The position numbers were made by a program, and so were the translations under genes. A stretch of 64,000 nucleotides of DNA. Source: a virus. How positions within the stretch are numbered: the first letter of the stretch is position 1; every line of letters starts with the position of its first letter. The notes under the pieces were generated by a model. It did not search any database and was not told where the DNA came from. It saw only the letters and a list, made by a program, of their open reading frames with translations. The DNA is taken from positions 1-64,000 of the IMG/VR virus record IMGVR_UViG_3300035204_001665; one strand, given 5' to 3'. Positions 4,019 to 47,954 of the stretch are shown one piece after another.

Positions 4019-4021
4019 GCT

Positions 4022-6492: not shown

Positions 6493-6493
6493 T

Positions 6494-11619: not shown

Positions 11620-11883
11620 TTACAGAAGTTCCTCCTGTGCCGTCGAAGCAGTAGTTTCTGTCTCTCTTGAGGATTCTCCTTCATTCCGGTCTTTAGAGCG
11701 ATAAACCCTAAAGTCCGGTTGATTGTCCTTAGATTTGTGCTTATTCATAAACACAACTACGTTTACTTCCTTACCGTCGACTTGAATTCTGCCGGTGAGG
11801 TATTTCTGATTGGGGCTTTCCCTTTTCCAGAGAGCGCCTAACTCCCTTTGGGACCATTCGCTTTTTTGTTCTGCGTTATCCAT
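11620..11883 (-). CDS. DUF736-like small protein
   Basis: 87 residues from the ATG at 11883 (an upstream TTG start at 11910 would place the promoter inside the gene). The core reads ELGALWKRESPNQKYLTGRI, then VNVVVFMNKHKSKDNQPDFRVYRS, which is the DUF736 pattern (LWkk...YLtG.i.....vvFkN..K...qPDyriy). The family is small, single-domain and of unknown function, frequent in plasmids and phages. The C-terminus is a polar Ser/Thr/Glu tail. A perfect TTGACA -35 with a 17-bp spacer precedes it. Confidence 0.65.
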   Translation of the reverse strand: MDNAEQKSEWSQRELGALWKRESPNQKYLTGRIQVDGKEVNVVVFMNKHKSKDNQPDFRVYRSKDRNEGESSRETETTASTAQEELL

Positions 11884-11892
11884 ACTTCCGTT

Positions 11893-11921
11893 ACGATATA
11901 GCCTATCCAAACTTTTGTCAA
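11893..11921 (-). promoter_or_regulatory. Sigma-70-like promoter (DUF736-like gene)
   Basis: The -35 TTGACA (11916-11921) is a perfect consensus, the spacer is 17 bp and the -10 is TATCGT (11893-11898). It ends 9 nt before the ATG, leaving a leader of 2-3 nt. The -35 overlaps the last codons of the sigma-like gene. Confidence 0.65.
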
Positions 11922-22521: not shown

Positions 22522-25500
22522 ATGTCAATACAAAATGATAATTCATTTATAAAAGGCAGGACGGTTACGAACACGTCCACCGACCCTTCTTTAGCTGGCA
22601 CGAACGATCAGGTTTATGGTGTAGATACTGCAGCACAAAACGCAGAAGCATATTCTGATTACGACGGCTATCAAGATATCGTCTTTTCTAATAGAACTGG
22701 AGAGGGGGTCTTTTCTGGTTACGCTACAGACGGAACAGAAACATGGGTTACCTCCAGAGGAATAATAAAGACCTTAGATTTAATTTCTGAAGGGGAGATT
22801 GATGGAATAGTTAGTGGCGAATGGGTTCCCGGAGGCGACAATTCCGAAGGCCAAGTGGGCTGGAGCGAAGTTAATTTTCAAGCTCACGGAGATTGGCCAG
22901 AGGCTATACTTAGATCAGTTTTTCTTAATGACACGCCAGTAGTAAACGCAAACAGTCAATACAATTTTCAAAGAGCAGTAGTTTCCTTCTCTAATGGCAG
23001 AGCAGAAGGAGTAAGAGAAGGCGATAATTTTTTAAAGGTAGGATCAGATCAGGGGTTAGAAAAGACTAGAACGATTAATGAAAGGTTGAGGGGTCCAGAT
23101 GTCAATGATCCAGAAGGAGACGGAACCGATGTCACTGGGGGAACGATCGATAATCCATTCTTTTATCACCCCAAGGTCTACAGTATTCTTAATCCTCAAT
23201 TGGAAAAGGTAAGAATCAACTTAAAAGTAGGCTCACTGACTTATCAAAAAACCATGGACGACTTCGAAGAAGGTACAGAGGTCGATCAAGCTATACTGGA
23301 CGATATGGCAAATTTAAGAGGAAGTAAAATTAGTTTTCGATATAGATATAGGCCCATATATGTTGATGACGCTGGGTTTATGGACTTAAATACCGCTAGA
23401 GATTGGTACCCAGAAGACGGAGCGATTGAAAACGGAGTAGAGGGACTCATTAGGAGCGCATACTTAGCGAAGCAAGAGATAACGGTAGACGACAGTTTAA
23501 AAACGGATCAACTCGCGGGGTGGGAATTTGAAATAACCAGAGTCACGTTGGATTCCATAGAAAGTAATGTAAATAACGAGACCTACATAGATTCTATTAC
23601 TGAGGTTTTCGAAGATACGTTCTCCTATCCTACCTCAGCCATGGCGGCCATGAAGTTTAACGCTGAATACTTTTCCCAAGTTCCAACTCGAGCCTATGAC
23701 GTTAGACTGCTTAAAGTTAAGGTACCTGCGGGTAATGGAGGATATGAGCCACTGACAAGAACATATAACGAACAACCTTGGGGCGGAACGTTTTCGGAAG
23801 AAAAAAAATGGACCGATAACCCAGCTTGGATCTTTTATGATATACTCACCAACGATAGATATGGAGTAGGCAAGCACATCGACAAGAGCCTCGTAGATAA
23901 GTGGTCTCTCTATGAAATAGCTAAATATTGTGACGTATTGGTCGACAATGGAGAAGGTGGATTGGAGCCCAGATTTACAGCAAACGTATTAATTAACACG
24001 AGAGAAGACGCGTATAAAGTCTTAAAAGATTTTGCTAGTGTTTTCAGGTCAATACTTTACTATGGCCTAGGCAGCATACACACCGTACAAGATAGGCCAA
24101 AACCAGAAATAGCCCACTATACTAACGCTAATGTAGAGGGCGGAGACTTTACATATAGTTCGACTAGTAGCAATATCAGGCCGACCGTATGCTTGGTCAG
24201 ATATAATGACAGAACGAACTTCTACAAACCGGCGATCGAATACGTAGAGGACACAGAGGGCATAAGAAAGCATGGAGTTATAGAAAAAGAGATTACTGCA
24301 TTCGCATGCACTAGCCGGTCACAAGCAGTAAGACTGGGAAGATGGATACTAACCACCGAATCAGCTCAAGCAGAAACAATTGGCTTTACGATTGGTCCGG
24401 AAGGTATGCTCTTGCGCCCGGGAGATATTATTAGAGTCGTAGACGAAAATAGAGACGCCGATAGATACGGCGGTAGAGTTATTAACTACGATTATTACGA
24501 TGACGAAAAGCACGTTAAGGCCATAACTCTAGACAGGGTGCCCACAATAAAGGAAGAGACAGAATATACCTTATTCTTAAATACCCCATCATACTTTTAC
24601 GACACATCTTTGGTAGCGGGGGCAGATGAGGTTGATGGCGGATTAGATAGTTCAGACGTGAAGGACATAAGAAAGCCCCACATACAGTCTTTTGTTTTTA
24701 ATGAGTCATCATCTAATATCACCATAGATAACACTATCAATATCGGCCCAGAAGGTATTGGTAATAGCAAGGGGGATATTTTCGGCACAAAAATCGCTCA
24801 CGCTGGAGACGTTTCGCAAGGAGAATGGATGTTCGAAAGCTCGTTAAATTCGGGCACGATCGTAGATAACGCTACTTGGACACTGGTAGACAATGCGTAC
24901 GCGAGTAACCAATATACTGTCATATCCACAAAGGAAGAAGAAAAGTTCAAATATTCTGTACAGGCCCTAGTGCACGAGCCACGAAAATATGACTATATAG
25001 AGAAGGGGTTAGTATATTCTCCCCCGACGGGGCCTGACAATCCAACGGCGGCTCCACCGGGTCCGGACGGGGTCTCACTAATTGTCGGTAACTATAATCT
25101 CAGCACAAGTAATACGAAGAAAATCAACATCACGGTAGATAAACCCGATGATGATACCATAGGAACGACCGTAGGGTACAGAATTTATGTTAAAGAAGGG
25201 TCTCAATTTGATTCTGACGATACCGTATCTCCCGGATCATCCATTCCAAAGAAAGAGTTCTTAATGAGAACCCTTTTCTTAACGGACCCAACAGATAATA
25301 ACGATAACCCTATTACCTACTATATCCCACCGAGAAATAATAAAACCTATTATTTTAGAGTATTTGCAGTTAATGCTGTTTCCGTTTTGTCGAGTGCGCA
25401 CAAAGACAATAATATTCAAGTAACAGACCACTATCCTATCAAAGATATTAAAGTTCATTCCCTGAGACTAGCTACGGACTCTCCGATTCTCAATGAGGAA

Positions 25501-27675
25501 AAAGACTCCGCCGAAAAACAATTCTATTCAAATTTAGAAGATAAAGACGCGGCAGTGAGTTGGGAGTCGACCTTCCTTAACGAAGTAGACATACCCATTA
25601 TTTTAAAGTATAAAATTACAATCAGAAAAGTTAGCCCGAATTCTAGTCCGGCAGATTTGATAACGTCTTTTGAAACTAATTCAAGCTACTTCAACTATAC
25701 CTTTGCCCTTAACGCAGCGACGACCGGAGGACCCAGAAGACACTTTGATTTAGTTGTAGAAGCTTTGGACGAAAACGGGCAGAGCTCGGCTGATAATTAT
25801 GCATCCAATGGAGAAGGGTGGGATATTATTGAGGTAAACAATCCGAGGCCATCGAATTACTGGTTGACTCCGAGAAAAGACGGTGGGAAAAGACCGGGCG
25901 ATCACGTATGCAAAACGGTTAATGGCGTGGCCGACGTATGTGAAACGATAACGACGGAACAGTTCATAACTGCAGATGGGCATATTAAACTCAACCTTAT
26001 AAATAATTCGTTTTCAGACCTAGCGGGAGGATTCTTATACTTGTCTAAGCATCCTTTTTCTGGGGCAGATTTTACCCCGGATGGCAGACCCAAGGACATA
26101 GCCAATAGGCCTAATATAGAATTTGCAGCGCACGAAGTATCTAAAAAGCCAGATTTTAGAATTATTGAAATCCCCTTCGAACGAGGAGTAAACGACGCCC
26201 AACTTCCTTCACAAATTACCCTCAGTCCTCCAGCTGGGGAAGACGGATCTTCTTACGTCTTTAATTATTCCAACGCCTACTATATGGCTCTAAAACTATA
26301 TGATAGCTACGATAAAGAAATTAAAGATAAGAAACTCAATCCGTGCTACGACTCTAACGCGGACCGTATAACCGATTGTTGGGAAAGCGGTATGCACATA
26401 GGATTTGCTAGGGATCACAGAGTTAACAAAACATCCGATTGCGACCCATGCGGAGAGTCTACCCTCTCTGGAATGTATAGATTTACCAGTCTATCATCAG
26501 GATGGTACGTCGGGGATCACGATCACCCGGATGGTTTTTCGACGATATCTCCCTCACCATCAACGGGAACTTTTGCTTGCCCAGTTTATCCCACTCAATA
26601 TTACAGTGCGAGTGCAGAAAATGGCTTTAAATATTGGTTAAGAATGAACGTAAATGGTCAATGGGAAGGTAACGGAATATCCCATGTTCGAGTCCTTACT
26701 CATCAAGACGTTGAAGAACTATATGATTACCAAGGTTACTACGAATATACATGTAGGATGTCAGAGAAAGTCACGACAAGTTATTATGTTTACCCTAATG
26801 ACATGGATTCGATAAGTAGATGTAGATTTAGACAAGGGAAACGCTCATCTTCGGGGGGAATTTATGATGTAGATAGATCTACGATTTTCGCTGGACCAAT
26901 CCCTGCGTTAGGAGCACCGAGTGGTCCGTTTACGTGGACCACTGGGGCGACTAGGCCACCCGCTGGTAGCGATCCAGCAGGTGGAACTTGGGTCCCGTTG
27001 CCTAGGGCAGGAATACCTTACGGCGGATGGGGAAGGCAGTACGATGGCCCAGCAGATAATGATACCCTAGCAAGTCCAGACGTAGACAAAATAGATTCTC
27101 ATAACTGGAGGGGTCAAAAAATTGAAGGTAAAAGCAGGCCGCTTTACGGTTTCAGAAGATTTAGAGTATACTTCGATCCGAATAATTTACCCCCAGAACA
27201 GGAAAAGTCGCAGTTATCTTCTTACGCTATCGTAGGACTTAATTCTTGGAACGGTCCATATGAGGCCTATCCCGGCACTACAGATTATTCCAAGAGTCTA
27301 CTAACTGCGAAAAATGACCTTGGGACATTTCCATATAGTGTAAGACAATGGATGAAAGAGGGCGATGTATTTGAAAATATTCCCGGAGTTTGGGACCATC
27401 ACCCAGCGGGTTTCGGCGCTGGTTACGGAGGGCTCGTAAAAACAGACCGATATTTTGATGTGCACATGGGCAGGTTAATAGATGATAGTTATTTAAATGA
27501 AGGCTTTTTTGGGGTGGTCGCTACGAATGATTACTCTATACTAGATTCCACGGTAAGGACTCCAAGCGCATACGACCAAGAAACGAAATTACATGAGTCC
27601 ACATGGGACACAAACGCGTTCGTTACTTTACCATTTGCCGCCGGGGGAGACGGTACGAACCCATATAACGATTAA
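22522..27675 (+). CDS. Lambda gpJ-like central tail tip / receptor-binding protein
   Basis: 1,717 residues against 1,132 in lambda. The N-terminal ~700 residues follow the gpJ pattern: RGIIKTLDLISEGEIDGIV, then KVYSILNPQLEKVRINL, NPAWIFYDILTNDRYGVG, and AVRLGRWILTTE with LRPGDIIRVVDENR. Fibronectin III-like segments lie around residues 830-1100 (PDDDTIGTTVGYRIYVKEG, NNKTYYFRVFAVN). The C-terminal ~550 residues, rich in Tyr, Trp, Gly and Cys, have no family I recognise and should hold the receptor-binding and host-specific part. It forms the tip spike that contacts the receptor. It is the end of the M-L-K-I-J order. Confidence 0.93.
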   Translation: MSIQNDNSFIKGRTVTNTSTDPSLAGTNDQVYGVDTAAQNAEAYSDYDGYQDIVFSNRTGEGVFSGYATDGTETWVTSRGIIKTLDLISEGEIDGIVSGEWVPGGDNSEGQVGWSEVNFQAHGDWPEAILRSVFLNDTPVVNANSQYNFQRAVVSFSNGRAEGVREGDNFLKVGSDQGLEKTRTINERLRGPDVNDPEGDGTDVTGGTIDNPFFYHPKVYSILNPQLEKVRINLKVGSLTYQKTMDDFEEGTEVDQAILDDMANLRGSKISFRYRYRPIYVDDAGFMDLNTARDWYPEDGAIENGVEGLIRSAYLAKQEITVDDSLKTDQLAGWEFEITRVTLDSIESNVNNETYIDSITEVFEDTFSYPTSAMAAMKFNAEYFSQVPTRAYDVRLLKVKVPAGNGGYEPLTRTYNEQPWGGTFSEEKKWTDNPAWIFYDILTNDRYGVGKHIDKSLVDKWSLYEIAKYCDVLVDNGEGGLEPRFTANVLINTREDAYKVLKDFASVFRSILYYGLGSIHTVQDRPKPEIAHYTNANVEGGDFTYSSTSSNIRPTVCLVRYNDRTNFYKPAIEYVEDTEGIRKHGVIEKEITAFACTSRSQAVRLGRWILTTESAQAETIGFTIGPEGMLLRPGDIIRVVDENRDADRYGGRVINYDYYDDEKHVKAITLDRVPTIKEETEYTLFLNTPSYFYDTSLVAGADEVDGGLDSSDVKDIRKPHIQSFVFNESSSNITIDNTINIGPEGIGNSKGDIFGTKIAHAGDVSQGEWMFESSLNSGTIVDNATWTLVDNAYASNQYTVISTKEEEKFKYSVQALVHEPRKYDYIEKGLVYSPPTGPDNPTAAPPGPDGVSLIVGNYNLSTSNTKKINITVDKPDDDTIGTTVGYRIYVKEGSQFDSDDTVSPGSSIPKKEFLMRTLFLTDPTDNNDNPITYYIPPRNNKTYYFRVFAVNAVSVLSSAHKDNNIQVTDHYPIKDIKVHSLRLATDSPILNEEKDSAEKQFYSNLEDKDAAVSWESTFLNEVDIPIILKYKITIRKVSPNSSPADLITSFETNSSYFNYTFALNAATTGGPRRHFDLVVEALDENGQSSADNYASNGEGWDIIEVNNPRPSNYWLTPRKDGGKRPGDHVCKTVNGVADVCETITTEQFITADGHIKLNLINNSFSDLAGGFLYLSKHPFSGADFTPDGRPKDIANRPNIEFAAHEVSKKPDFRIIEIPFERGVNDAQLPSQITLSPPAGEDGSSYVFNYSNAYYMALKLYDSYDKEIKDKKLNPCYDSNADRITDCWESGMHIGFARDHRVNKTSDCDPCGESTLSGMYRFTSLSSGWYVGDHDHPDGFSTISPSPSTGTFACPVYPTQYYSASAENGFKYWLRMNVNGQWEGNGISHVRVLTHQDVEELYDYQGYYEYTCRMSEKVTTSYYVYPNDMDSISRCRFRQGKRSSSGGIYDVDRSTIFAGPIPALGAPSGPFTWTTGATRPPAGSDPAGGTWVPLPRAGIPYGGWGRQYDGPADNDTLASPDVDKIDSHNWRGQKIEGKSRPLYGFRRFRVYFDPNNLPPEQEKSQLSSYAIVGLNSWNGPYEAYPGTTDYSKSLLTAKNDLGTFPYSVRQWMKEGDVFENIPGVWDHHPAGFGAGYGGLVKTDRYFDVHMGRLIDDSYLNEGFFGVVATNDYSILDSTVRTPSAYDQETKLHESTWDTNAFVTLPFAAGGDGTNPYND

Positions 27676-28411: not shown

Positions 28412-28423
28412 AGGTATAAAGAT

Positions 28424-29314
28424 ATGGCAGTAATGATAAGAAAAAAATTCGGATATACAGTATCTGTTGTAAATGGTTCCAAAAGAATAACGGCTTGTTC
28501 CAAAGCTGACTGGATACCAATAAAAGATGGTAGCTTTATAATTATTGACGGAGATAATGAATACTATAGATTATCACATAAAAAACAATTCCTTTATGTA
28601 AAAGAGGCCCGAGTAGATTCCGCGAATAAATTAGTTATAGATGGGATAGCAGAAAGCGGATCTATATCTGCTAATGATTCGTTAGAGTTTACAGCAAACG
28701 AATATCAGATCACAAAAGTAGACGTGGCTGATGGTGGCACAGATTATGTCGTCGGAGATATTATCTCTTGCGCTGGACCCCTTAGTAAACTTAATTCAAG
28801 CGATGATACTCAAGAGCACGCAAGGGTAGAGGTAAAATCTATTACCGAAAATGGATCCATTGAGTCAATAGAGCTGATCTCGAACGGTACATATATTGCT
28901 GCTTCCGAAGAGGGTGACATTTTCAATATTAAAGATGGCTCTGGTTCAGGTGCGTCCCTTTCTTCTCGGTATACTCTGTCAGCTAATAAGCCAATAGAAG
29001 AGAGAAGCATTTCTGGAATAGAAAGGAAAGACAATAAAACCATAATCTACTTGTCTTATCCGTTACCGATAAGTATGATCTCTGGCAATGTCTCTGTAAA
29101 AAAATGGGAAGCCGTTTTGGATTCTCCGTATCTAGGAGTGACTAAGGCTGGCGCATCATACGAAATAATAAAAGACTTTACCCCTAATCTAGACCTGCCC
29201 CTCATAAAGGGAGAGCTAGCGTCTACTCCCTTGTTGTATAATGAGTCAATGGTACTAATTGATAAAAAAATCAAGGAATTAGAAGAGCAGATCGAGTCAC
29301 TTAAAGGAGAATAA
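28424..29314 (+). CDS. Tail-associated structural protein, GGTxY-type beta-repeat
   Basis: 296 residues. It has a related repeat to the previous gene: DGGTDYVVGDIISC, then VEVKSITENGSIESIELI with NGTYI, which fits the 'GG..Y.vGD' variant of the phage structural repeat. The start RKKFGYTVSVVNGSKR is beta-like and the C-terminus is a short Glu/Lys coiled-coil-like helix (LIDKKIKELEEQIESLK), as in fibre trimerisation ends. It starts 12 nt after the previous stop, with AAAGG 9 nt upstream. Position after gpJ suggests a tip accessory or chaperone; no family named. Confidence 0.65.
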   Translation: MAVMIRKKFGYTVSVVNGSKRITACSKADWIPIKDGSFIIIDGDNEYYRLSHKKQFLYVKEARVDSANKLVIDGIAESGSISANDSLEFTANEYQITKVDVADGGTDYVVGDIISCAGPLSKLNSSDDTQEHARVEVKSITENGSIESIELISNGTYIAASEEGDIFNIKDGSGSGASLSSRYTLSANKPIEERSISGIERKDNKTIIYLSYPLPISMISGNVSVKKWEAVLDSPYLGVTKAGASYEIIKDFTPNLDLPLIKGELASTPLLYNESMVLIDKKIKELEEQIESLKGE

Positions 29315-29326
29315 ATCCACTTATCA

Positions 29327-29334
29327 AGTGTAAT
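29327..29334 (+). promoter_or_regulatory. AGTGTAAT element upstream of the FtsZ-like gene
   Basis: AGTGTAAT followed by AAGTAGT lies 7 nt before the ATG. CACTT-ATC-AAGTG just upstream forms a small inverted repeat. There is no Shine-Dalgarno, so a near-leaderless transcript is possible. Confidence 0.45.
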
Positions 29335-29341
29335 AAGTAGT

Positions 29342-30499
29342 ATGCAAGACCCGGTAGACGTAAACGCTTATAATAACCCAGATATTCCTGATATTTCCTT
29401 GCCAGACATTCCAATGCCTGAGCCAGAAGAGGTAGTCGTAAAGGAAGTGAAAGACGAAATGGACGCAGCCTTCAAATTTGCTTTTGTAGGGGCTGGCCAA
29501 GGCGGATCGAGAATCGCAGAGACATTCCACAAATTGGGGTACAGAAAAATTGCGGTTCTCAACACTGCTCAACAAGACTTAAACACTGTTAACTTGCAAA
29601 ATAAACTTCTAATTGGAGAAGGCGGTGCCGGGAAAGATCCCGCATATGCAAAAAAAGTATTCGCCGAAAAGAAAGAGGAAGTAGTAGATTTCATGAGATA
29701 TTCGTTCGGCGAAGAACTGGATAAAATCATGGTGTGCGCAGGTGCGGGTGGAGGAACAGGGTCAGGTACAGTGACTTCCTTAGTCCTCGCTGCGAAAGAA
29801 TTACAGGATACACTCGGAGCAAAGACTCCGAAGGTCGGTGTCATTTTAGCCTTACCCAAACATTCCGAAGGAAAAAAGGTTAATGCAAATGCCCACAAAT
29901 GTTTAAATGACGTTTATAAGTTGGTGGAAGAAGGTATAGTATCTCCTTTCGTCATCATTGATAATGAAAGGATCGGTAAGCTGTATCCCAACTTGGTTGT
30001 TTCTAAATTTTGGGATACCGCTAACATGAGCATGGCTGGTCTGTTTCACTTATTTAACTTAACTGCTTCTAGAGACAGCTCTTATACGGCTTTCGATTCT
30101 AGTGATTATAAGTCTGTACTAGATTCTGGATTAATGATGTTCGGTGCTGCCCCAGTGAAAGACTGGGAAGATCCGGTTAGTATTTCCAGAGCGATAAGAG
30201 ACAATTTCAAAAAAGGTTTACTTTCGGGAGGTATCGATGTTTCTACGGGTAATTGCGCCGGAGCAATTGTCGTAGGAGGGAAAGAACAACTCGACAATAT
30301 ACCTCAATCCAGCCTCGATCAAGCATTTGACCAATTATGTAGGATGCTTAAGCCGGGGAACGTCGTCCACAGGGGCATTTACAGCGGCGACAAGCCCTCT
30401 CTGACGGTTTATACGGCCGTTGGGGGTCTAGGTAAGCCTGTAGACAAACTGAGCGAATTAATGAAGCTCGGAGACATGGTTCCCCTCGAAGAGGACTAA
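29342..30499 (+). CDS. FtsZ/tubulin-like GTPase
   Basis: 385 residues. Residues 1-42 are an unstructured Pro/Asp/Glu-rich tail. The GTPase core starts at FAFVGAGQGGSRIAETF. The nucleotide motif GAGGGTGSG is at residues 134-142 (FtsZ/tubulin signature GGGTG[ST]G). IGEGGAGKDP (91-100) and SPFVIIDNERI (201-211) match FtsZ positions. The T7 synergy loop FDSSDY (251-256) keeps both aspartates (D252, D255), aligning with NxDxxD of FtsZ. The FtsZ-type C-terminal subdomain follows (GLMMFG, then IDVSTGNCAGAIVVGG). It should bind and hydrolyse GTP and polymerise. It lies after the tail-tip genes and ends 6 bp before the end of the convergent tape measure. Confidence 0.88.
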   Translation: MQDPVDVNAYNNPDIPDISLPDIPMPEPEEVVVKEVKDEMDAAFKFAFVGAGQGGSRIAETFHKLGYRKIAVLNTAQQDLNTVNLQNKLLIGEGGAGKDPAYAKKVFAEKKEEVVDFMRYSFGEELDKIMVCAGAGGGTGSGTVTSLVLAAKELQDTLGAKTPKVGVILALPKHSEGKKVNANAHKCLNDVYKLVEEGIVSPFVIIDNERIGKLYPNLVVSKFWDTANMSMAGLFHLFNLTASRDSSYTAFDSSDYKSVLDSGLMMFGAAPVKDWEDPVSISRAIRDNFKKGLLSGGIDVSTGNCAGAIVVGGKEQLDNIPQSSLDQAFDQLCRMLKPGNVVHRGIYSGDKPSLTVYTAVGGLGKPVDKLSELMKLGDMVPLEED

Positions 30500-30505
30500 A
30501 GAGCC

Positions 30506-33500
30506 TTACCCCCTATTTTGTGTGGATTGATGGAGTATTCCTCCCTGTCTTTTCTGCTGTACGATAGTCTCTACTACGGTTTGTTTGATAAGTGTTCCAA
30601 GCGATCTGGCCTTTTCGAGAGATATCCCTTCTCCTCCAGTATTTACGTCGGTCGTTATCCCTCCGTTTTCGTTTAGATTTACGTTAATTGTAATATTGTT
30701 TGTTGTATCCCCATCAGCGACAGAGGGCTCAGACATTATTCCTTTGGCATTTTTCTCTGATCCCTTGCTTGATCGTAGACCATTTCCGCCCACGTACCCG
30801 CCCGAAGCAAACGCAGGGACATTCCCCTTGTTCAGTTGGGTAAAGAAATCTGAACCGTATTTTTGTACTGCACTTCTATTGACTACGTATTCTCCGCCCA
30901 TTAACATGGCTGGGATAGCGTCGCCGATTAGTCCGCCCGTGGCCTTCCCGATACCTCTACTGGTTACCGCTCCTCCCGAAGCTCCACCTAGCCAGCTAAA
31001 GAAGTTGCCGCCGACGGTGCCTTGCGCTCCGGGCATGCCTAGCCCAGCGCCACCTGTTAATGCACTTATGCCTAATGATGCCGCAGCAGCGATCATGGAG
31101 TACTTCATTCTCTTCTTCTTCGCGGCCTTCCATTTTGCTACTGCTTCTGCATGGGCAATTAGATCACTTGCTCTATCTTCGTAGTAGCTATAAAGTTTGG
31201 ACACCTTGTCTTGTCTAATTTTGTTCCTTGGATTGTCACTGTCGGCAAGTGCTTGTCTAGTTAATCTAGGATCTATTGAAAAGTAACTATGATCAAGCGA
31301 CGGGAACTTATCACTATCGTAAACAAATGCATTTCTTAAATTATAATCTACCCATCTTCCCTCTCTCCCATGTTTTATATTCGAGACCAGTCCTTCTTGC
31401 GGATCGGCGAATGCGTTTGCCTCCCATTGCGCTTTTAACTTAGCTATGTCTTTGGTAGACATTCCTAGTCCACCGTGCGTCGTGGGCTCAGACAAGTGCG
31501 TCCAGTAATCTACCTTATAGTTCTTTTTTCCAAAGAAGCTGGGGTCTGGATCTGTGTGTTCATATTGAGGTAGACCTCTTTGTCTTCTTAAGGCGGTCAT
31601 TTCTGACACTAAAGTTTTGCTGCCGTCAGGATATAGAATATATGCCGGCTGGCCTAATTTTGGATCTCCGACAATCTTTCCGGGGCCTCTTCCTGCACGG
31701 ACGCCTGCACCGACTCTGCCTCCGGTGGCATATTTATTTACCGCCCCAAATCCCTCATTATTAATGAGATCAATTAGAGAAACTCCATACTTTTTAACCG
31801 CCGCTTTTCTTAGTACATATTCCCCTTGTTGTAAAAATGCAGGCACATCGTCTTTGGTTCCTGACCCTCCTACAACTGGTCCACCTCTAGCAAATTTTTG
31901 AACACCATTATTAGTAATCAAGCCACCCGTTGCTGCTGGAGCAGCCTGCGCGAACGAGCCTATTACTCTATTTACTGTCATCTGGAGTACTTGATCTAGA
32001 GCATAATCGGCCAACTTTAGGAACATGTCACTGAAAGCTTCCTCCAAAGTCTTAGTTCCCTTAATCGCTTCGCCAAACGCAGAAGCTATTCCGCTTCTGA
32101 ACTCCATGCCAAATGTAAATAATGCTTCATCAGCATCGATCATCATTTCTTTGGTTCCGTAGTGCCAAGCGGCGAAGAGATCCTTGAAGGTCTGCTTCAT
32201 TTGATAACTTCCGTCCTTAATAGACTTTCTAGTTTCTTCCCTTCGAGCTTCTATTGTTTCCCGACTTAGTGTTCCCGGGTCGAGCATGTCTAAATTAATT
32301 TGTTCTCTTAGGTCGGTTAAATCATTTTTTAGTTTCTTTATTTTTATATTTTTCCATGCTTCCTCTAGACTCTTTCCATCTTTCGCCATTTGTTCCAGCA
32401 ATTTTGCTTGGTGTTCATATTTCTTGGCCTCCTCAGAGGCCGCTAGGGCTCCTTCCACATCTTCGCCTAACATCAAGGTATCGTGTTTAGCCCAAGCTCG
32501 CTTTGCTGCCACTTTCATATTTTCGATTACTGGAGCTATGGGAGTAGTAATACCCGGTTGGATTTTGCCCGGCATTAGATCTGGATGATCCTTAAGAAGA
32601 GACGCGGTACCCACTTGCCACGCTGCCCTTCCTGCTTGCCAAGTTTTTTCCTCTTGTGCAGAAATAGCTGAAGGCATTGCCCCAGAAGCCTTCATCAAAT
32701 AAAGAGTTCTTCTTTCTAGTTGGAACCGATTATCGTGAGCCTCCTTGGACATTTTGAGACTATTCTCGTGAAAGTTCTTCTGAGCCTTTGTCATCGCTAA
32801 GTAAAACTCTCTTATCTGCTTAGGCGTTAGCTTCTGACCGCCAAGGTCTAGTTGGGTTAGCTCGTCAAAGAGCCGCTTTTGTACTTCCGGGCTTTGCCCG
32901 GGACCAAATACATCCTCCGAGGTACCAAGGCTACCCTGAAGATATCCATGAAGCACTCGGCCACCTTGCTTATTTAAGCCAAATTTCTTTTCTAAATCTG
33001 TTATCCATTTTGGGCGTTCCCCCTTTCCTTGTATGCCCAAAGACGCAAGCAGCCCTCCCAGCTTTTTCTTAAGGGGGCTTTTACTATCTGACCAGTAAGG
33101 TACTCCCGGAGCCTCGCCGCCCAAGGGCCTAGCATCTATACCGGCTCTACGGGCCGCCTCAGGGGTTTGGTTCCACCCTATGTTCAAGCTCCTCCAAGAA
33201 TTAGCCGGGGCCTGTCCGGCTTGGATAAGCCTAGATTGACTAGGAAACAGCCCAAGCGGCGCATACCCGGGCCTTTTGCCCCCTGAAGAAGTATCAAGTC
33301 CCAAGCGTTTTTTGATCGTATCAATGAGGTTCTGGTCCTTGCCGCCTCCTCCAGTTCCAAACATAAACTGCTCTAAACTTTTTTCTATTCTCTTCTCAAG
33401 GCCGCTGGCCAATTGTTGCAAGTTGTCAGATGTCGCTGGGCCACTTCTCAATTGCAGGATTGAACGATCTAGTTCTTTTATCTCCGCGTCCAATTGTTGA

Positions 33501-36500
33501 AGCTGTAGGTTAAAGCCTTCTTTTAATAATTTTTGTAGCTCTTTAAGTGTGTCTCTCTGTGCGTCTGTAGCGTCCTCCATCACTGACCTAATATCTTCCA
33601 TCACTAACTGGGTACCTAATTGTTCATTCGGGGCAAGTATTTTTCTTATTTGTTCATCTAATTTCTTCTTCTTGGCGGGCATCCTTTGAATTGCATATAA
33701 AGTGGGGTCGAGACCTTCCAGCCTTATCTGGTCTGTTAGACCACCAATCAAATCATCAAGATTGTCTACTTGGTCCTCGACATATTGTTTTAATATTTTA
33801 TCTACTTCCTTTTGGGCAATCTGGATATCGAGATATCTCTCACGAATTACAGAGTCTGACTGCATTGCTGCTTGCCTTAATGCGTTAGCTTGCGTTTTGT
33901 AATGTTCGTATTTGGCCCTTAGTTGTGCTATTTTTTTCGGGTCCTCTTCCTGCGCCTCCATAATCTCTAGCTCTAGTCGCATTTCCTCTGCCATGACCTT
34001 GGTTTGATCAGATTCCTTCAATCGCGCATTTCTCCAAGCGGTCGCAGTTGGTCGGGTAGCCTGCGCTGCACTCGCTGCACTAGGATCTCTTGTCGCCGCT
34101 CCCCAGAAATCGAAACCGGTCGATTGACCTCCTTGGTATGCCATACTCGCATAATTTTTCCTCCAAGCGTCCATGGATAAACCTATTCGCCCACTACGCA
34201 TTTCTCTTTGTCCGGCTCTATTAGCGGTTGGTGTAAGTGACGCCTCGAAAATTCTTCTATTTAATTGACTTAAGTCTTCATTAGCTTGATCTGCATTCTT
34301 TAATTGCATTTCAAATAATATTCTTCGACGTTCTGTCTTGGCTGCTTCGTCTTTAATTTCGTTGTCGTAAATTTTAGCAAATTGGCTTTCGTATTTTCTT
34401 ACTCTTAGTTCATTTAAATTAGCGAGTGAGGTTATTTTTTCCTGAACCGTTTTCATTGGGGATAATTGAGTATCCAAGTTATCTAACATGGCATTTTCTA
34501 AAGCATCATTGAGATCAATCATTTGATCCTTTATATACGTTTTCATCTCTTCGCCCAGTGGGCCCTGTTGGGCTTTAGCTAAGTGTCTCCATCCGCCAAC
34601 GCCGAACATCTGACCTCCCACGCCAGAGAGTCTTCCCGCCTGATCCCAATTTGATCCGAGTTCAGGTTGCCCAAATAATCTGCCTATGCCGGGTTGATGC
34701 ACGGAAGTTCTAAGCATGGAGCCTCTATCTCCTATTGGAATACCGGCAGCAGTAAATTTTTCTTCTGTAGCTTTTCTTCCTCGTCTCCAATCCCCCACAG
34801 CCGAAGCGTGCTCTGTTGCCATTTGTTTTTTCCATTCTACATGTTTTTCCGCTGGAGTCAACCCGGCCCATTTTGCCTTGGCATTGTCGCCGTATTTTTT
34901 AACGTAGTGTGCTGGTGGAACTGTCTGAGTGTCAGCTGGCATCGCCCCCCTTCTCGGCGCGGGAGCGTCATAGCCTTTAACCTCTTCAGCTGTGATGCCA
35001 TATCTAGCCGCCTGTAAACTCACGTTGGGAGTATAACCCCCGAATTGGAGCCTTTCCATACTCGCACTATGACGCGTGGCTCGTGCAGCAGAAAAAGCTG
35101 CCCGATTGTCCCTAGTCGCAGGAAGTCTTTCGAGCTTCATCAATTTTTGTACGTTATCGTCTAGCGTGCCTTGTAGTTTTCTGAAGAAGTTCTCATGATC
35201 TTCGTCGAAAAGAACTTCTAGTCTGTCGACTAAAGTTTTTTGGAAATCTGTTAAGGCGAAGTCACCACCGAGAATCTTATCGAAATCTTGATCTCTTCCC
35301 CAGTCCGCAAATACTTCTTTAAATTTATAGCCAAGCGAAGTGTCTTTTAATTGACCCAATTCAGTCCTAGATTCAAGACCTGTAAACTTTGCGCGTTTAA
35401 AGGCCGTGTCTGCCGCATAGCCTTTTTCCATAAATTTTTGTATATCTATATCCCTCAAGATTTGAAGGGCCTTTATTTGATCTTGAAGGCTTCCGGCTTG
35501 GACGTTCGCTATGGCTTTTTCAATTCTTAGCCTGTACTCTTGGAGCTTTACGACATCTCCATGCTCCTCCCCAATCTTCTTGATTGCTTCCAAGACTCCC
35601 ATCAGCTGCGCCTGTTCCAATGCGTCCTGTCGGTCGAAATTATCAATGTCATTATCAAACTTGTCTTGCAGCTGCTCGAGTCTCGATCTTATAGAACCCT
35701 CTATTTTGCTTTCCTTAATGCCTGTCTCCAATGCCATTTGTACTTCATTGAGGACGGATTGAGGGCTACTTTCTGCCACCGCAGTCAATCCCAGACGTGT
35801 CCCAGTTCCGAAGCCCGCCCATTCCTTAGCAGTTCCGCCTCTGAAGAGCCACTCTGCCTCTTTTTGTATTCTTTTAAAGTCTGGTAATATAGCATCCATT
35901 TGCGACATGCGCTCTTGCTGCTGGTTCCACCAAAACTCTTTACCCCAATCTGTAAATAAGGACGGTCCGGCTGTCATAGGCCTTAAGTTAGGGTCACGGC
36001 CTTCATTTAGGCGTTCCCTCTCCTCGTTGTAGTATTCTTGATCTCTCAATGCTGCCAGCCTTTTTAGTCCGGTAGCTAAATCTCTTAACTCAGCATCAGT
36101 CATATCTATAGACTTCTTGCCTCCCTTACCGCCTTTGGTCCATCCGCCAACAAGTGAAGCTTTATATCTCTCGGCATCCTCTTGATCTTTGAGATTCTCA
36201 GATGCCTGCAGCCTGAAATAAGCGTCGATCGCAAGAGCACCTTGCCAGAATCTATTCTTTTTCATTCCAGACTCTCCGTACGAGCCGGCCTTCGGAACCT
36301 CTTTCCTTGCTGTCTCTTTATCTACTGCGAGCTCTATCCTCGCATCTCTCACTTTTAGTGCTTGGTTGCGCACAGCTCTTTCTCTAAAATCCCTTGCTAA
36401 ATCCGCCGGCGGCGGCGGATTTAAAGGCCCGGCCCCGGAAACTTCAAAAACTTGACCACCTTGGTCGATGGCACGTTCCTTAGCCTTAAGATTCAGAACC

Positions 36501-39500
36501 GCCTCTTGCCTGTCAATCCTTTCGTCGAGGAGTCTAATTCGTCTCCTTTCCCATTCTAGTGCATCTTTAAAATACTGTTCCTGCTTGTCGTTCGGCGCTA
36601 GATCCCATTCCTCACTCATGCCAAGTGCTTCTTTACTTAGCTTAATAGACAGTTTCTTATGACGCTCCGCTTCTGAATACGCCTTTTTGCGCTGTATTTC
36701 TAACTCGCGCTTTTCATGTTTATCGATATTGTCACGGCGCGAAAACTCCGTTATATTATCCCCTTTCAATGTCCATATATCGCCTCGCTGTCTATGAGCC
36801 TCCGCGAGCCTTTCCTTTTCAGCGATCTGAGCCCTGCGGGAGATATTAGGAAGGTCTTCGCCGTATTTCATGTATTTTTGATATGCATGTTTATAGCTTG
36901 CCAGCCAATCTTCATCGCCCCTATCTCCGGTCCTATCATTGGGCTCTACTCCCGTGTACCCCAGCTTTTTCGCCATAAACCATGCGCCTTGTTGATTTAT
37001 GACCCTATCGCCACCAGTGGTTCCGCCGAGGAGGCTGGTAAACATCTTCACCCACTGAGTTCCGGTGCCCACGTTCCTGTCAATTATTTGAGAAAGGGCT
37101 CCATACAGAGTAGCTTCCTCTCCCTTTTTATATTTCACGAAGAAGTCACCCTCGTCTGATACCCCATTCTCGAAAAAGTCGTCCCCAATGGCTGGCAGAG
37201 CGCCGCCGCCGAGTGGCACGATTCTACCCGCATCGAGCTCCTTCTGCGTATATGTTCCTCGTTTCCTATACATGCCATCCTGACTCCAAACCGTATTGCC
37301 GGCTGCATCTTTTTCCCATGGTTGCCAATTGCCCGCTTTTGCTACAGCTAAATTTGCCTGAAAGTCTGGTCCCATGTTCGCGAGCACGCCTGAATCAAAT
37401 CTTACATCTGATGGTATTTGTCCACGTGCTATTTGCTTAAGTGCTTCTACTCGTCCAGCATGACTGAGATTCGGATCATCAAATAGAGCTTGCCCGACTG
37501 ACATGAAAGCTTTAGCTTGCGCCGTCCTTGCCTCCCTTTGCGCTTTCTCAGCCGTACCCCCGGAACCATCAGCGAGCAAGTTTCCCTGATCCCACTTCAT
37601 CCAACCCATCTGCATAGCTAGATATTTTGACCGCAGATCTTTAAATTGTACATCCATCTTGCCTTGTTGGCTCAATCTTTCCTGTTCTGCGTCACTCGTG
37701 CTATTCATTAGCTGCATCGCTCTTTTTTCGTTCTTGTTAATCTCTTGGAGATTCTTCATGTACGTTTGAATTCCGAAACCAACGTTAAAAGCAGTGATGA
37801 GACGTGACAGGCTATCATCTATTGACTGGAATCCCGCTTCATTTGTCGCCGTTATCACTGTCCCGATATTGTCTATTCCGGTTTCTTTTATTGCTCGAGT
37901 AAAGGCACTTTGGTTTGCCTCCTCCAAGAATCTCCACTGATCCCCAAACATCTCCCTCAACAACTCCATATCATTTCTAATTTTGATCACATCTTCAGGC
38001 AAGGCTTTCAATTTCAACGCAGCGCTGACTTGCTGCATCGCGTCGTCTATTGCTCCTTCGCTCATTGATTTAAAGACGCCCTGCCTCCACAATTCATCGT
38101 CTGGTTTAGCGCCCCCCCAAGACCTCAGGTTTTTATCCTTAATTTTGAGCTGTTTTTGTACGTCTAAAGTCAGGCCCAGTACGGCACTAGCAATCATCTT
38201 GTCGTAAGTCGGGTCGGAAAGCTGTCCCGCGTCCATACTGAAATTTTTTGTTAGATCCTGTAAAGACTTAAAGTCCGCCCTTCCTCTATTCATAAGTCGC
38301 TGCGGTATAGTCGGGCTAAATTCCGCCTCCGCCCTTTCCTCTCGCAGACTTCTAGTCTTTTTCCATCTTTCTCCTCCAGCAAAGCTAGCTATCCCTCCTC
38401 CAAATTTTAACTGTTGTTGAAGTTCGATTAGTCTTTCTTGATTCTTTGTTTGTATTTTTTGAATCATTATCTCTTCTTGTTGTTGCTGTAGCAACTTCAT
38501 TAAGCTTTGTTCGGCCGATTCTTTCAGAGAGCCTATCTCATTCACTACGGAATCTATCTCGGTAGAACTCAATCCTACGGTATTAAGCTCCCGACGAAGA
38601 TTTTTCACTATGTTCGGCATCATTTGTTCCGGGGCAGCGGCTGATTGGTGCAGGGCTTTTCCCAGTATTTCAGAGAACGCCTGTTGAGCTCTCTCTCTTT
38701 TCTTTAATTCAGTTTTTTCAGTGATCGATAAGGGCTGGCCTTCTTTATATTGTTTTAGTTGTAGTCTTTGTACTGTCTTAGCATTTTCGTCCAGCTTTTT
38801 ATCAAGAACACCAATTATGCTGCGCTGAGTTTTTGCAACCAATAACTGCCCTGACGCTAAATATTTCTCCATAGTGGCCATCTCTGCTATCTGTTGCTTC
38901 CGCTGCATTTGATCCCATTTTCCCTCGAAAGGATCAATCAATTTCGAGTGACCCCTCGCGTTTGTTAGGACGGCCTTCCTAGAATAAGATTCTCTCATTC
39001 TTCTTCTTTCATTATGCCCTTCTACTCTTTTTCTTGCAATGTCAGTAATTGATTTAAGATTAAAATTAAAATGATCAAGCTGTTCTCCAGCTCTCTTCAT
39101 TGCTACGTTAAATACGCCAGATATCTCTTTATTTTTTCTTATTACTTCCGCCAGCTTATCTAACTCGTCTGCGGCCTCGCTTTCAGCCTTTAGGCGATGC
39201 AGAATCGCCCCGTTGAGAGCGGTCATATCATGTATTCCTTTAACTAATACCTGCTCTATCGCCTCCATCAGTTCGGGGTTTAGGCCAACCTCCGCGAACC
39301 ACTGCATATTATTTTTTACTCTCTCGTTATGCTTTATCCCGGGTCGGGTACCGGCCATCAATTTTCTTCTGAGCTCTTTGCCCGCAAAACCCTGAACGTC
39401 TTCCTTCTCTAACCTCCTCATGACAGAATCCACCACCGCATCTCTCGCAGCAGCTGCATTAAATCTCTGTTTTCTTGCCTGTTCAGCGCCACCCGCTGCA

Positions 39501-42500
39501 GCGGCTCCTCCACCGAATCCACCTTCTACACCTGTTTTGTCACCGCCCTGATGGCCCCAGAACCACCACCCAATTTCGTCACGCTCCTTCCTGCCTTTTT
39601 CTATAGTTCCCGCAGCTTCAATGTCTTTAGCAACATCCTTCAGGGATTTTTCGATTCTTTCGAAGGTCTTTTTGAGTTCGTCGCCGCTATGAGCAGCCGC
39701 CCTAACATCCGCAGCAAATTCTCTCGGTACATTTCTTACGGACTCGAACATCGCGTCCGTTCTCTTTTTTAATTGTTCGGGGCTGATATCTGGATCAGTT
39801 AAAGCCTGCTGGTATTCAGCTTGATTCTTAAGATACTCTTGGGAAAGATTTTGAAACTCTTGCAGTTTTTCATTTGCCCCCTCTAGGGCCTCCTTCCATT
39901 TTTTGGTTTGGTCTCTAGAAGCTTCTCCCCACTTTTCAATTCCATCCAACACAGCGAATGTTGCAGCGCCAGCCATCACCCATGGATTGCCGCTCATTGC
40001 TCCCATCAAGCCAATGCTCATGCTATCTTGGACGACCTTGGACTTCTGCTCATCCATTCCGAGCCCGGCCATTGCTCCGCCGACCATAGGCATCGCCATC
40101 ATTCCCATCATTGCCCCCTGTTGACCCCACTGTCCAACCATTCCTCCGCCGCGCTTCAACGAACCCATCATACCGCCCCCCGCCGCTCCAGCGGCGGCAC
40201 CGCCTACCATTTGCCCTGACGACATTGCATTTCTATTGTGCGCAGCAGCTTCTCTCGTGAGAGCTGCAGAATTTTTGTCATGTGCAGCGCGCTCTTCTTG
40301 AAGATCTATTTCTAGTTGCTTTCTTGTTGCTACTTCCTTATCGAGAGCTGCTCCTTCTTTTGTTCTTGAAACTTTATTCTTTTTTCTTTGTTGGACGCTG
40401 GCCCTTATTTCGTCCGCTTCTTTTTTTCGGTCTTTATTAGATTGGGTTAAAATTTTGTTTTCTTCCTTTTCCAGCTTTTCCTTTTCCTCATCAGTCATCG
40501 AGCTAGTCTTCCTTCCTTTAAGTCCAGCCTTTTCTCTAGCTTCCGATTTTTCTTTTCCGGTTAAATCGTCCCTTCCTCTTTCCTTATCTAACTTGTCGGC
40601 CTTGGCTAAATCTTTATCGTCTTTCTTTGTATTTTTTAAGTTTTTGGCAAACTCTTCTAGCGCTTGTTCTGCTTGCTCTGCGCCGTCGCCCAATTCTCTC
40701 TGCCGTTCCTTAAGATCCTCGCCCTCTGCCTGCATTGCTTCGAACCTAGTTCTAAGCTCTATGGCGGCTGAGCCTGTCTCTTTAAATTTATCTGCCAAGT
40801 CTTTGGCTCCCATAGCCATAAAGGCCAGAGCCATCGTATTTATGCCGGTGTCTACGCCGGTCATTCCTCCCCCCTCATCCTCCGCAAAGTTGGGAACAAA
40901 CCCGCTTGAAGACAAAACCTTTTGAGCAGCCTTGGAGTTTTGCACTGCCCTACCTATACCTTCTGGATGATCCCTTACTACATCAGCGAAACTACTTTGA
41001 GTTTTAGCGTCTCTTACATAAACTCCCACCCTAGGATTATAATCTAACGTCGGCTTTCCACCGAGCGCCTGCTCTGTCTCGATTGCTTCCATCACTCCGA
41101 AATTAGGAATGAAGCCCCCAGATTTTCCTTTGCCCTTTGTTCCCTTTTTACTACTTACTTCCGAACGTATTCTCCTAAATTCATTGGCTATTTTTTCAGC
41201 CATACTTTTTCGAAGGGTCGGTGAATTCTGGGCCTTGTAATCTGCATGACCAACAAAGGGTACACCAAATAAGTTTCTAACTTTTCCTGATCCTTTTGTA
41301 CCCGATCTAACATCAAATCGTGCAGTTTCTACATCTTTAGCTCTAGCGAACGCTGCGTCTAATCCTGCTTCAAATACGTTGCCAACCGCAGATTTGAGAG
41401 CGCCAGTATTAAAATATTTCCCCGGCTCAGGAGTTAAAGCAGGCTTAATTGGGTCTGGACTGAATTCCCTTGCATACGCTGTCGCTGTTTTTGTCAAAGA
41501 TTTTTCTACCTTTTTATGTAAAGAGTCCCTCCTGTTCTTGGGTATGTCTGGGTCATAAATATTAAATTTTATTCTCGTACTTTTCTTTCCTCTACCTGTT
41601 CCCGGAACTGACGCTATTGCTGAGGTCCCACGCCCAGCCCCGAGTCCCATCTCTGGCACTAACATCGCAGCCGACCGAGTAGCATCCCAAACTCCCCCAA
41701 CTCTTCTCGGCTCAGCGACAGCGAAATTAGGAATAAATCCTCCAGAGAATAGTTTTTCTTTTCTTGCCGCTAAAGCGTTTTTGGTATCAAACCCCATTAT
41801 CCTATTCATTTCGCCAAGGCTTCCTATGGCGGGAGTGCCAGAGGGAGACATCGTCCAAGTAGAAAGTTCATTACCTCTATTTTTCGTTTCTATACCTATA
41901 CGATTTTCTAGAGTACGTAAATGGGCAGCAGCCATTTGATCACCGCCCTTTATTTTTGATTGCAGCCTTCTCTTTAGGTGGCGCAAGCTAGAACTATTTG
42001 TTTCATATAAAGTTTTTTTAAAAATTTGAGCGACATATCTGGCTCTAAAAGATGGCTTAGATTCAACCGCAAAGTTTCTTCCTCCCACTCTTTCTCCCGA
42101 ATCATAAGGTAACTTGAGTTTCTGTGGGTCCATGTCTTTTGCCGCTTGACTCTTGCCTCTAAATCGACCCATTCCAAATCCTCCGTATCTTGCGGCAAGT
42201 GCGGCTTCCTGTTGTCCTCCTTTTTTCGCCGCTCTCCTTCCTGTTCCTTTCGTAAATCCGGCCCTTTCTTTTTCGGTTATTGGTTTTTGTTGACCCAGCG
42301 TATTGATGGTTACATATTCACTTCCGGGAATAACATATTTAATGACTTTGCCTAGTTCTGGGCCGACCTCTTTAGCTAGCACGTCTCCCCTAATTTTTAA
42401 TCTGCCACTAGACCCCTGTCTTCCCTGCTTGTCTACGCCAAGGCGTAGGGACGTAAGAAATTGCAAAAGGTTTGGAACAAATCCAAATGCGCTAGGTCCA

Positions 42501-44447: not shown

Positions 44448-44455
44448 ATTACACT
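44448..44455 (-). promoter_or_regulatory. AGTGTAAT element upstream of the tape measure gene
   Basis: On the minus strand the element reads AGTGTAAT and is followed by TAATAATTAAGG, which provides a Shine-Dalgarno-like AAGG. It lies 22 nt before the ATG at 44425. It recurs at other structural genes. Confidence 0.45.
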
Positions 44456-46844: not shown

Positions 46845-47954
46845 TTAGCTTACCGAACCACTCATGAACAATCCTCTATCAGTTTGAGAGGATGAACCGA
46901 TTTGAGTACTAAACGTTAGCGTTACGGACTCGTTATCTCCAATCGAGCTAGTAAAGGACTGGCTGTCCAATTTAGCCTTCTTAAGGAGGAACGCGATGTG
47001 TGCGTTTGCGCCATCGTTCAGGTGAACCGTCACGTCGTGGCTACGGTCCAAATCAATGATATCCGCTAGGTTACCAGTGGTTAAGTCTCCGACCAGTGCG
47101 TCTACGGTCATGGTTACTGTCACCGGGAAGGTAATCTCTCTAGCGAATGCAAAACGGCTGCCTAACTTATTCAGCGGCTCTCTTGCGAGGTCGAAACTAA
47201 GGTTATAGTTTTGAACCTTGGCATCACTAATCGCACCTTCCACGAATGGGAGGTCAAGAGTGATGTCACCGGGTTTGATCGCGTTAACGATACTCGAACC
47301 GGTTTGAGAGGTAGCTTCAGCAAGGCTGAACTTATATTTTGTGTTCTTCAAGCCGTCTGATGGGTTAACATGAGGTGAATATCCACCCGTACCTTGAATA
47401 AAGGCCATGTTAAGGGCTTCCACAGTAGATGAAGCCGTCGGGAATCCACCGACTGCTGCTTCAGATGTGTACGAAGCCATAAATCCATTACCAACGCCGA
47501 TCACGCGACTAAGATTAGTTGGGTTGCCGCCGTCTTCGGCTTCTGCGAATCCGACTGCGTCACTACCTTCAGATACAATCCGAATGTAGTAGTTTCTCTC
47601 GTCAGCGTCGTTATCCAAAATGTCAGTCAAACAGGACTCTGTCCCGCCTCCGATTTTGAATCCCATTTTATCTTCGTTATGGAAGCTGCAGAGATACCAA
47701 GAAAAGTCCAGACTTACAGTCGGCTGTTCCAAGATAACTCTATCGATGGCGGCGAGATCGCCGTATTGGTTTACGTCTTGTCTAGCGATGTCAAAACTAT
47801 AGTTAGCGCTTTGAATTCGCTTGAGCTGGTTAGGTGCATGTGTTCCAGACTCGTGATCCCAATCTCTTGTATCAACATGATTCGCGGAGTACCGCTTATC
47901 CGGTCCGGCGTACACTGCTTGACTTTGATAAATTACTCTATTTCTAGTGGCCAT
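46845..47954 (-). CDS. Major tail (tube) protein
   Basis: 369 residues. Two tube-like beta halves are visible: NYSFDIARQDVNQYGDLAAI followed by VILEQPTVSLDFSWYL, and a later copy NYNLSFDLAREPLNKLGSRF with REITFPVTVTMTVDALVGDL. These repeated 'I.R......YG' and 'tv.l.f..y' elements are characteristic of siphovirus tube proteins. It ends with a hydrophilic GSSSQTDRGLF. It would polymerise into hexameric rings around the tape measure. AAGGA sits 9 nt before the ATG; the gene has its own terminator, consistent with high expression. It also resembles the TIG-domain protein at 18678. Confidence 0.75.
   Translation of the reverse strand: MATRNRVIYQSQAVYAGPDKRYSANHVDTRDWDHESGTHAPNQLKRIQSANYSFDIARQDVNQYGDLAAIDRVILEQPTVSLDFSWYLCSFHNEDKMGFKIGGGTESCLTDILDNDADERNYYIRIVSEGSDAVGFAEAEDGGNPTNLSRVIGVGNGFMASYTSEAAVGGFPTASSTVEALNMAFIQGTGGYSPHVNPSDGLKNTKYKFSLAEATSQTGSSIVNAIKPGDITLDLPFVEGAISDAKVQNYNLSFDLAREPLNKLGSRFAFAREITFPVTVTMTVDALVGDLTTGNLADIIDLDRSHDVTVHLNDGANAHIAFLLKKAKLDSQSFTSSIGDNESVTLTFSTQIGSSSQTDRGLFMSGSVS

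Follow-up and report, generated by a model that had tools for sequence, protein, structure and literature searches.

What does a tubulin do in a phage with a lambda-type tail, and why should its gene lie beside the tail tip? The question is raised by the window, the whole stretch of 64,000 nucleotides (nt) analysed here, which covers positions 1 to 64,000 of the incomplete, 82,869-bp IMG/VR virus record IMGVR_UViG_3300035204_001665. It carries the gene of a phage tubulin of 385 amino acids (aa) (29342..30499, + strand), recognised by its open reading frame (ORF), by Pfam and PDB sequence matches and by its AlphaFold fold. The answer proposed here, with slightly less than even probability and on the strength of sequence and predicted structure, is a phage-encoded, probably late-made tubulin filament that would be driven by GTP and act in virion assembly.

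A phage tubulin outside FtsZ proper

The protein passes the curated threshold of the Pfam Tubulin family PF00091 (48.9 bits, E = 1.2e-12, cut-off 33). In the PDB sequence search the TubZ of Bacillus cereus ranks first (8.5e-16), followed by a CetZ-type entry and then by FtsZ. The AlphaFold model, built on an alignment of 30 phage rows, has a mean predicted local distance difference test score (pLDDT) of 83.9 and a predicted template modelling score (pTM) of 0.83, and its best solved match in Foldseek is TubZ 4ei7 (1.4e-23). In VIA-align, TubZ 2xka (333 residues aligned, root-mean-square deviation 2.6) and 4ei7 both reach a Z of 36.1, CetZ2 ties with them within 1 at 35.2, and FtsZ lies at about 31. 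The NCBIfam ftsZ equivalog TIGR00065 is matched below threshold, at 63.9 bits against a cut-off of 295.2; the Pfam search of the 385-aa protein gives no FtsZ_C row at E ≤ 1, and TubZ-like_C is not passed (15.3 bits against 26).

By sequence and predicted fold, the gene thus encodes a complete GTPase of the tubulin/FtsZ superfamily. Because the ftsZ equivalog is matched only far below its cut-off, the protein is read as a superfamily member but not as FtsZ; the comparisons place it outside FtsZ proper and nearer to TubZ and CetZ. The "FtsZ-type core" of the initial annotation therefore holds for the superfamily and not for a kinship with FtsZ. Two findings had been named beforehand as fatal to the assignment, namely a predicted structure without the tubulin fold or the GTP pocket and a place within a cellular FtsZ clade. 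The model has the tubulin fold and the residues of the GTP site, and the tree places the protein among phage proteins, apart from FtsZ.

Conserved GTPase site and N-terminal tail

The G-box GAGGGTGSG (residues 134-142; 29741..29767, + strand) and the T7 catalytic loop FDSSDY (residues 251-256; 30092..30109, + strand) are both read intact in the ORF, as had been claimed. In all 81 phage proteins compared, G134, G136, G137, G138, G140 and G142 are invariant, as are F251 and the two aspartates of the loop, D252 and D255. Further invariant positions are G50, G52, Q53, G55, N74-T75-A76, D79, G94-K98, P172, E176-G177 and D207-N208-E209, and 125 positions are conserved at 97.5% or more. The ratio of non-synonymous to synonymous substitution rates (dN/dS) is 0.009-0.06 in six of ten homologue pairs; the other four, including all three with the window protein, have no usable dS. 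The relatives of the window tubulin are under strong purifying selection, and the highly conserved positions together with the low dN/dS show that the ORF is not a chance product. The catalytic set and the T7 loop speak in favour of a GTPase that polymerises.

The N-terminal tail (residues 1-42; 29342..29467, + strand) is predicted to be mostly disordered, with a pLDDT mostly below 50 in residues 1-32. Across the family this tail comprises about 40-64 residues and is variable apart from one motif, represented in the window protein by DISLPDIPMP (residues 17-26; 29390..29419, + strand). In 80 of the 81 phage tubulins the tail carries the family pattern P[DE][IML][PL][MLIV]P (PDIPxP-like), which no other listed ORF of those sequences has (1123 ORFs of at least 70 aa overall). 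A much looser pattern matches all 58 tubulins of a second scan, for which there is no control set. The motif is present in the phage-like locus L090 and missing in 14 rows from Planctomycetota, Omnitrophota and Anaerolineae, two of which are N-terminally cut. The tail of 42 residues rich in Pro, Asp and Glu is indeed unlike FtsZ, as first noted; composition alone does not describe it, given the shared motif. At the other end the protein stops nine residues past the last helix (GDMVPLEED), and on inspection no FtsZ C-terminal conserved peptide is visible after a linker. The motif-bearing tail suggests the docking of a partner.

The family and its place behind the portal

Two scans of IMG/VR returned 122 and 358 relatives, from each of which 80 were kept, in overlapping sets. 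A tblastn search with the tubulin against 50,697 deposited phage records gave no match at E ≤ 1e-2, and neither TerL nor the conserved head protein c8 matched a deposited phage at the limits used. Clustering of the ORFs of 80 loci reveals a recurring block of an ERCC4-type nuclease, TerL, portal, tubulin and c4-c3-c7-c8-c10. The portal gene, identified by phrog_16240 in 8 of 14 members (best 3.4e-7), lies upstream of the tubulin in all 80 relatives fetched first. It adjoins directly in 64 and is separated by one or two ORFs in 16: a c19 gene in 13 loci, c19 and one further ORF in two, and two other ORFs in one. In the second scan it lies at most four ORFs upstream in 54 of 58 loci; of the exceptions, L250 and L252 are close to contig ends, and in L253 and L254 a larger number of ORFs intervenes. 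Among the loci of both scans no second tubulin adjoins a tail tip, L252 having no recognisable neighbour. These matches define a large, separate family of phage tubulins that is abundant in uncultured marine phages. No description of it was found among the open-licence papers listed, and it may be described elsewhere. The nearest published mentions are of tubulin/FtsZ as one of the proteins whose abundance is raised in hot-spring viral communities induced with mitomycin (PMC8597652) and of tubulin homologues in phiKZ-type marine jumbo phages (PMC9123017).

Several features of these loci stand beside the main pattern. In 15 of 80 loci portal and tubulin are separated by a c19 paralogue (for example L006 8436-9746 and L086 1234-2544), tail-tube-like by position, and G004 retains a second c19 copy in its tail module. 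The head module of L006 includes a ClpP-like protease (11857-12615, 3.5e-27), possibly a capsid maturation protease. In the tubulin-positive G243 (L139 with L214 and L233), c10 and a 124-aa gene are followed by a single ORF of 10,929 aa that is open at the contig end. For c8, an identity as the capsid protein was considered and dropped: the predicted structure failed (pLDDT 43.6) and a PDB profile search of c8 was without match, so c8 is called a head-module protein only.

Probable arrival of the gene at the tail tip

The initial annotation placed the gene at the end of the tail-tip cluster, and the location is correct. The gene is inserted between a 296-aa gene, the last of the tail-tip operon (28424..29314, + strand), and the gene of a 4639-aa tape measure (30506..44425, - strand; phrog_4211, 1.2e-50). 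The locus L083 matches the window at 45-56% identity over the stretch that runs from J to the tape measure. There a 292-aa gene (45% identical to the 296-aa gene) abuts the tape measure with no tubulin between and none anywhere in the 19-kilobase (kb) record. By this alignment L083 is an empty insertion site. G004 (116 kb) likewise has a window-like tail module without tubulin at that point, and its tubulin stands behind the portal. Since the tubulin of the relatives follows the portal and the L083 site is empty, the tail-tip position is secondary. By itself it therefore argues for neither a tail-tip function nor a tail scaffold.

Six phages have tubulins that share 76-79% identity with the one in the window, and their c3 and c8 proteins share only 51-58% with the window counterparts. 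In a regression on 136 other pairs, which are not independent of each other, these six comparisons lie 3.9-5.4 standard deviations high and the other 11 between -0.5 and 1.7. The tree places the window tubulin in the clade of the same six phages (100/99). Because the tubulin identity far exceeds that of c3 and c8 to this clade, the gene probably entered the window lineage horizontally, at a new site. The window record holds a single tubulin; its head module, on the minus strand at 71.6-82.1 kb, ends before any portal, and a second copy may exist behind the portal of the incomplete record. The nearest relatives of its c8 are L119-L124 (67-76% identity), in which the same two large ORFs separate c8 from c10. 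In L120-L124, the loci that reach the portal, no tubulin follows it.

A gene that stands outside the head module of its relatives might also be an assembly chimera or cellular contamination, an explanation that deserves hardly any credence. The ORF fits cleanly into the junction of two genes that adjoin each other in L083, it carries an element used elsewhere in the record, the genes most closely related to it belong to phages and stand in structural surroundings, and its GC content of 44.5% falls within the 36.5-47.4% of the neighbouring genes.

A promoter-like element ahead of the tubulin

The phage-wide promoter-like element AGTGTAAT (29327..29334, + strand) ends 7 nt before the tubulin ATG and holds AGTGTAA, the top start-associated 7-mer; the same analysis finds AGTGTAAT before the tape measure gene (44448..44455, - strand). 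Of the 13 AGTGTAA sites in the window record, 7 lie no more than 45 nt upstream of an ORF start, against a background of 1.55% (p = 3e-10, uncorrected for the roughly 16,000 words compared). Over 80 loci, 126 of 193 sites do so, the highest among all 7-mers (window record with L001-L081). The form GTGTAA[TC] is found near starts at 31 of 44 sites in seven sequences, and six one-base variants at 0-3 of 20-49 sites each. Besides the genes of the tubulin and the tape measure, AGTGTAA in the window record stands before those of a 361-aa TIG-domain protein and a 172-aa protein and before two right-hand genes, several of these being genes of the structural region; it precedes no gene in the left 16 kb. 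Judged by these genes, AGTGTAAT is probably a late promoter. An element in front of the gene, as postulated earlier, is thus real, and its probable lateness is read from the company it keeps. In L006 a copy of the AGTGTAA type lies 187 nt upstream of the tubulin, and in the 64 loci where the portal directly adjoins, the tubulin could share the portal transcript. For a group without deposited relatives of TerL or c8, AGTGTAAT offers a means of proposing late genes.

An inverted repeat, CACTT-ATC-AAGTG (window 29318-29330), overlaps the element ahead of the tubulin, and a similar one, CACTA-TAA-TAGTG, overlaps the element at 19804 (- strand).

A proposed tubulin filament in virion assembly

In the proposed mechanism, the filament would polymerise in the cytoplasm of the host while virions are being assembled. 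Its conserved N-terminal tail would dock a phage protein; the likeliest candidate is a component of head assembly, for example the portal or the procapsid, because the usual neighbour of the gene is the portal. Growth or treadmilling of the filament would position or carry assembly intermediates. This role would be the capsid-trafficking half of PhuZ function, without the phage nucleus. The element and the gene neighbours argue for action in the assembly phase, unlike the early PhuZ. A wider version, which is conceivable but doubtful, would see a second, independent phage cytoskeleton, in which a mobile, late tubulin docks head or tail intermediates by its N-terminal peptide and runs morphogenesis without a nucleus, in host cells that barely exceed the virion in length (tails predicted at about 0.4-1 micrometre). 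The proposal bears on how general filament-driven virion assembly is among phages of ordinary size and on the way in which small cells can produce virions whose tails measure 0.5-1 micrometre.

Several observations weigh against an assembly role. Tubulin is present in only 13 of the 78 loci newly fetched by the shared head protein c8. Thirty-two records that are tubulin-less at the c8 locus, those of 136, 178 and 209 kb included, have none elsewhere when searched whole, many of them being fragments; the ten tubulin-positive records in these whole-record searches had been picked as positives. Tubulin is thus dispensable for this virion type. An own copy of the promoter-like element within 60 nt of the tubulin is found in 11 of 81 loci only, namely the window and ten of the related clade. 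The gene is also mobile, at the tail tip in the window and at a third genomic site in L090, a contig with DnaE and a Clp-type ATPase on which it lies beside homologues of window genes 15996, 16746 and 18002; by these placements, mobility weakens any argument from gene neighbours.

The accessory nature of the gene would suit an antagonist of host division that co-assembles with, caps or titrates FtsZ or its partners, the undivided cell allowing the assembly of a long virion. Phage inhibitors of FtsZ have precedent, T5 protein 008 being reportedly one, and the L090 contig is binned with a bacterium whose bin also holds a high-scoring FtsZ-type gene. However, a gene under a late promoter, should the element be one, would act late for a block of division. 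In fold the protein is nearer to TubZ and CetZ, its identity to FtsZ is about 20% and the FtsZ C-terminal peptide is not visible, while a fully conserved GTPase site exceeds the needs of a simple inhibitor. Division antagonism is accordingly considered unlikely.

Tape-measure length

The filament reading places the tubulin at assembly; a further explanation would make it a scaffold or component of the tail or virion, a polymer that guides or stabilises the growth of the tail tube. The tape measures of seven tubulin-positive phages (4639, 6037, 6429, 4792, 3088, 2902 and 4736 aa; median 4736) are longer than those of eight tubulin-negative ones (2996, 2191, 1831, 3001, 5468, 2404, 3506 and 2481 aa; median 2738.5), with a Mann-Whitney p of 0.029, or 0.059 after merging of two close relatives, in records that are not phylogenetically independent. 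Five tape measures were matched to that of the window by BLAST (G004, G005, G227, G238, G240) and G235 by part only; the other eight were assigned by gene order and size. Cut or not reached, and so left out, were the positives G001, G006, G245 and G271 and the negatives G228, G229, G231, G234, G237, G248, G249 and G253-G256. The positives G009-G011, G243, G269, G270 and G272 were left out for want of a comparable tail order in the stretch read, and G007, G246 and one G243 stretch stand outside the comparison.

The longer tape measures and the tail-tube-like c19 paralogue of 15 loci speak for the scaffold. Against it, the tubulin-negative G240 has a tape measure of 5468 aa, positives are as short as 2902 and 3088 aa, seven positives show no comparable tail order in the stretch read, the records share ancestry, and the tail-tip position in the window is secondary. 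A scaffold role is therefore given a small probability, and the link between tubulin and tape-measure length is a trend with clear exceptions and shared ancestry, to be treated as a lead only.

Tail length follows from the tape measure at 0.15 nm per residue, which predicts tails of 435-964 nm for the tubulin-positives. For the window, G004 (L087-L088) and G005 (L215-L216), tape measures of 4639, 6037 and 6429 aa predict tails of about 0.7-0.96 micrometre. The longest reported tail is that of P74-26 at nearly 1 micrometre (PMC10034513).

Cellular relatives

A genome scan found at least 11 loci with relatives of the family, L090 among them. The others are cellular, from Planctomycetota, Omnitrophota and one Anaerolineae assembly, with 36-42% identity over most of the protein; both loci tested, L091 and L093, have housekeeping-gene surroundings. 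The Planctomycetota and Omnitrophota rows form their own clade (99/98), and the cellular family is rare: 2 of 199 Planctomycetota genomes are positive at E ≤ 1e-30, one of them the search centre. In six such genomes, whose assemblies may be incomplete, the family members are the sole Tubulin-domain matches. An Omnitrophota relative passes TubZ-like_C (29.6 bits against 26), the N-terminal tails of the cellular members lack the phage motif and are rich in Lys in several of them, and in two Planctomycetota assemblies (L098, L099) tubulin-like genes occur as adjacent pairs.

A tree that includes PhuZ and FtsZ has very long branches. Without them, the phage rows and L090 do not form one clade in the best tree, and the constraint that they do is not rejected (approximately unbiased test, p-AU 0.106). 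Tubulin transfer between phage and cell may have run in either direction.

The tail module and other features of the window

The tail-tip genes upstream of the tubulin match phrog_14, phrog_18, phrog_30 and phrog_32, and are joined by the central tail fiber J (22522..27675, + strand; phrog_31, 3.6e-150). A 369-aa protein of the c19 family (46845..47954, - strand), without a PHROG match, is a probable tail tube by position only. By PHROG matches, the features of a lambda-tail-type siphovirus are present: minor tail genes, the I and J tip genes and the tape measure. The claim that a phage with a lambda-type tail encodes a tubulin whose GTPase site is intact is thus borne out, with domain, fold and tail-gene matches in agreement.

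At 2675-9143, beside a RecA-like gene, the window encodes a GDP-mannose 4,6-dehydratase, a DegT-type aminotransferase, a MUCI70-like glycosyltransferase and a methyltransferase, a set for sugar modification. It contains no tRNAs.

Comparison with known systems

TubZ of Bacillus and Alicyclobacillus plasmids (4ei7, 2xka) is the best solved match by sequence and fold; its motifs are laid out similarly, and its T7 loop has the form FD-x-x-[DE]. The family profile scores Alicyclobacillus TubZ at 120 bits and Escherichia coli FtsZ at 32. TubZ is about 20% identical to the window protein, which lacks its long basic C-tail and has a conserved N-terminal tail instead. This nearest characterised relative, and the 12 plasmid records matched, all from Bacillota-type hosts and several annotated as plasmid replication or tubulin-like, would favour a TubZRC-type partition of an episomal prophage or plasmid-like phage genome. 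The loci themselves differ. In three of four plasmid TubZ loci fetched, an ORF of 94-112 aa, which we take to be TubR, lies directly upstream; the ten neighbour families of the phage relatives, one of them the ClpP protease, give no adaptor-like Pfam match over cut-off, although a divergent adaptor could escape. Neither an iteron array nor centromere-like repeats were found at 28300-31200, the stretch searched, and the setting is a structural module. Partition is thus very improbable.

FtsZ has the GTPase core and T7 loop in common with the window protein, at about 20% identity in the aligned part. The best match in the viral structure library is A0A6J5RW92 ('FtsZ Cell division GTPase', uncultured Caudovirales phage), with a TM-score of 0.82 over the query; it differs in its 452 aa and its 29% identity to the window tubulin. 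Ten other rows (E ≤ 1e-5) have 11-16% identity. The tubulin-like proteins of Planctomycetota and Omnitrophota, for which we know of no name, are the closest cellular relatives found, and they differ in their separate clade, housekeeping context and lack of the phage motif.

To our knowledge, phage tubulins have been described almost only in nucleus-forming jumbo phages, where they are early genes whose products centre the nucleus and carry capsids, and in TubZ partition systems. PhuZ of the jumbo phages phiKZ and 201phi2-1 is likewise phage-encoded and a possible analogue for capsid movement. The PhuZ of Noxifer is a structural match in the viral library (9e-11, 13% identity). The phiKZ protein gp39, presumably the PhuZ of that phage, was among the ORFs searched, and the family profile does not retrieve it at E ≤ 10; in the tree it stands apart from the family on a very long branch. 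Capsids move along PhuZ filaments (PMC13282480), and PhuZ is an early gene with a C-terminal extension (PMC13282480, PMC4244570), whereas the window family is, from its upstream element, apparently late and its extension N-terminal. Phage tubulins as such are already known; what is new is a family of them that differs in expression signal, extension and genomic setting.
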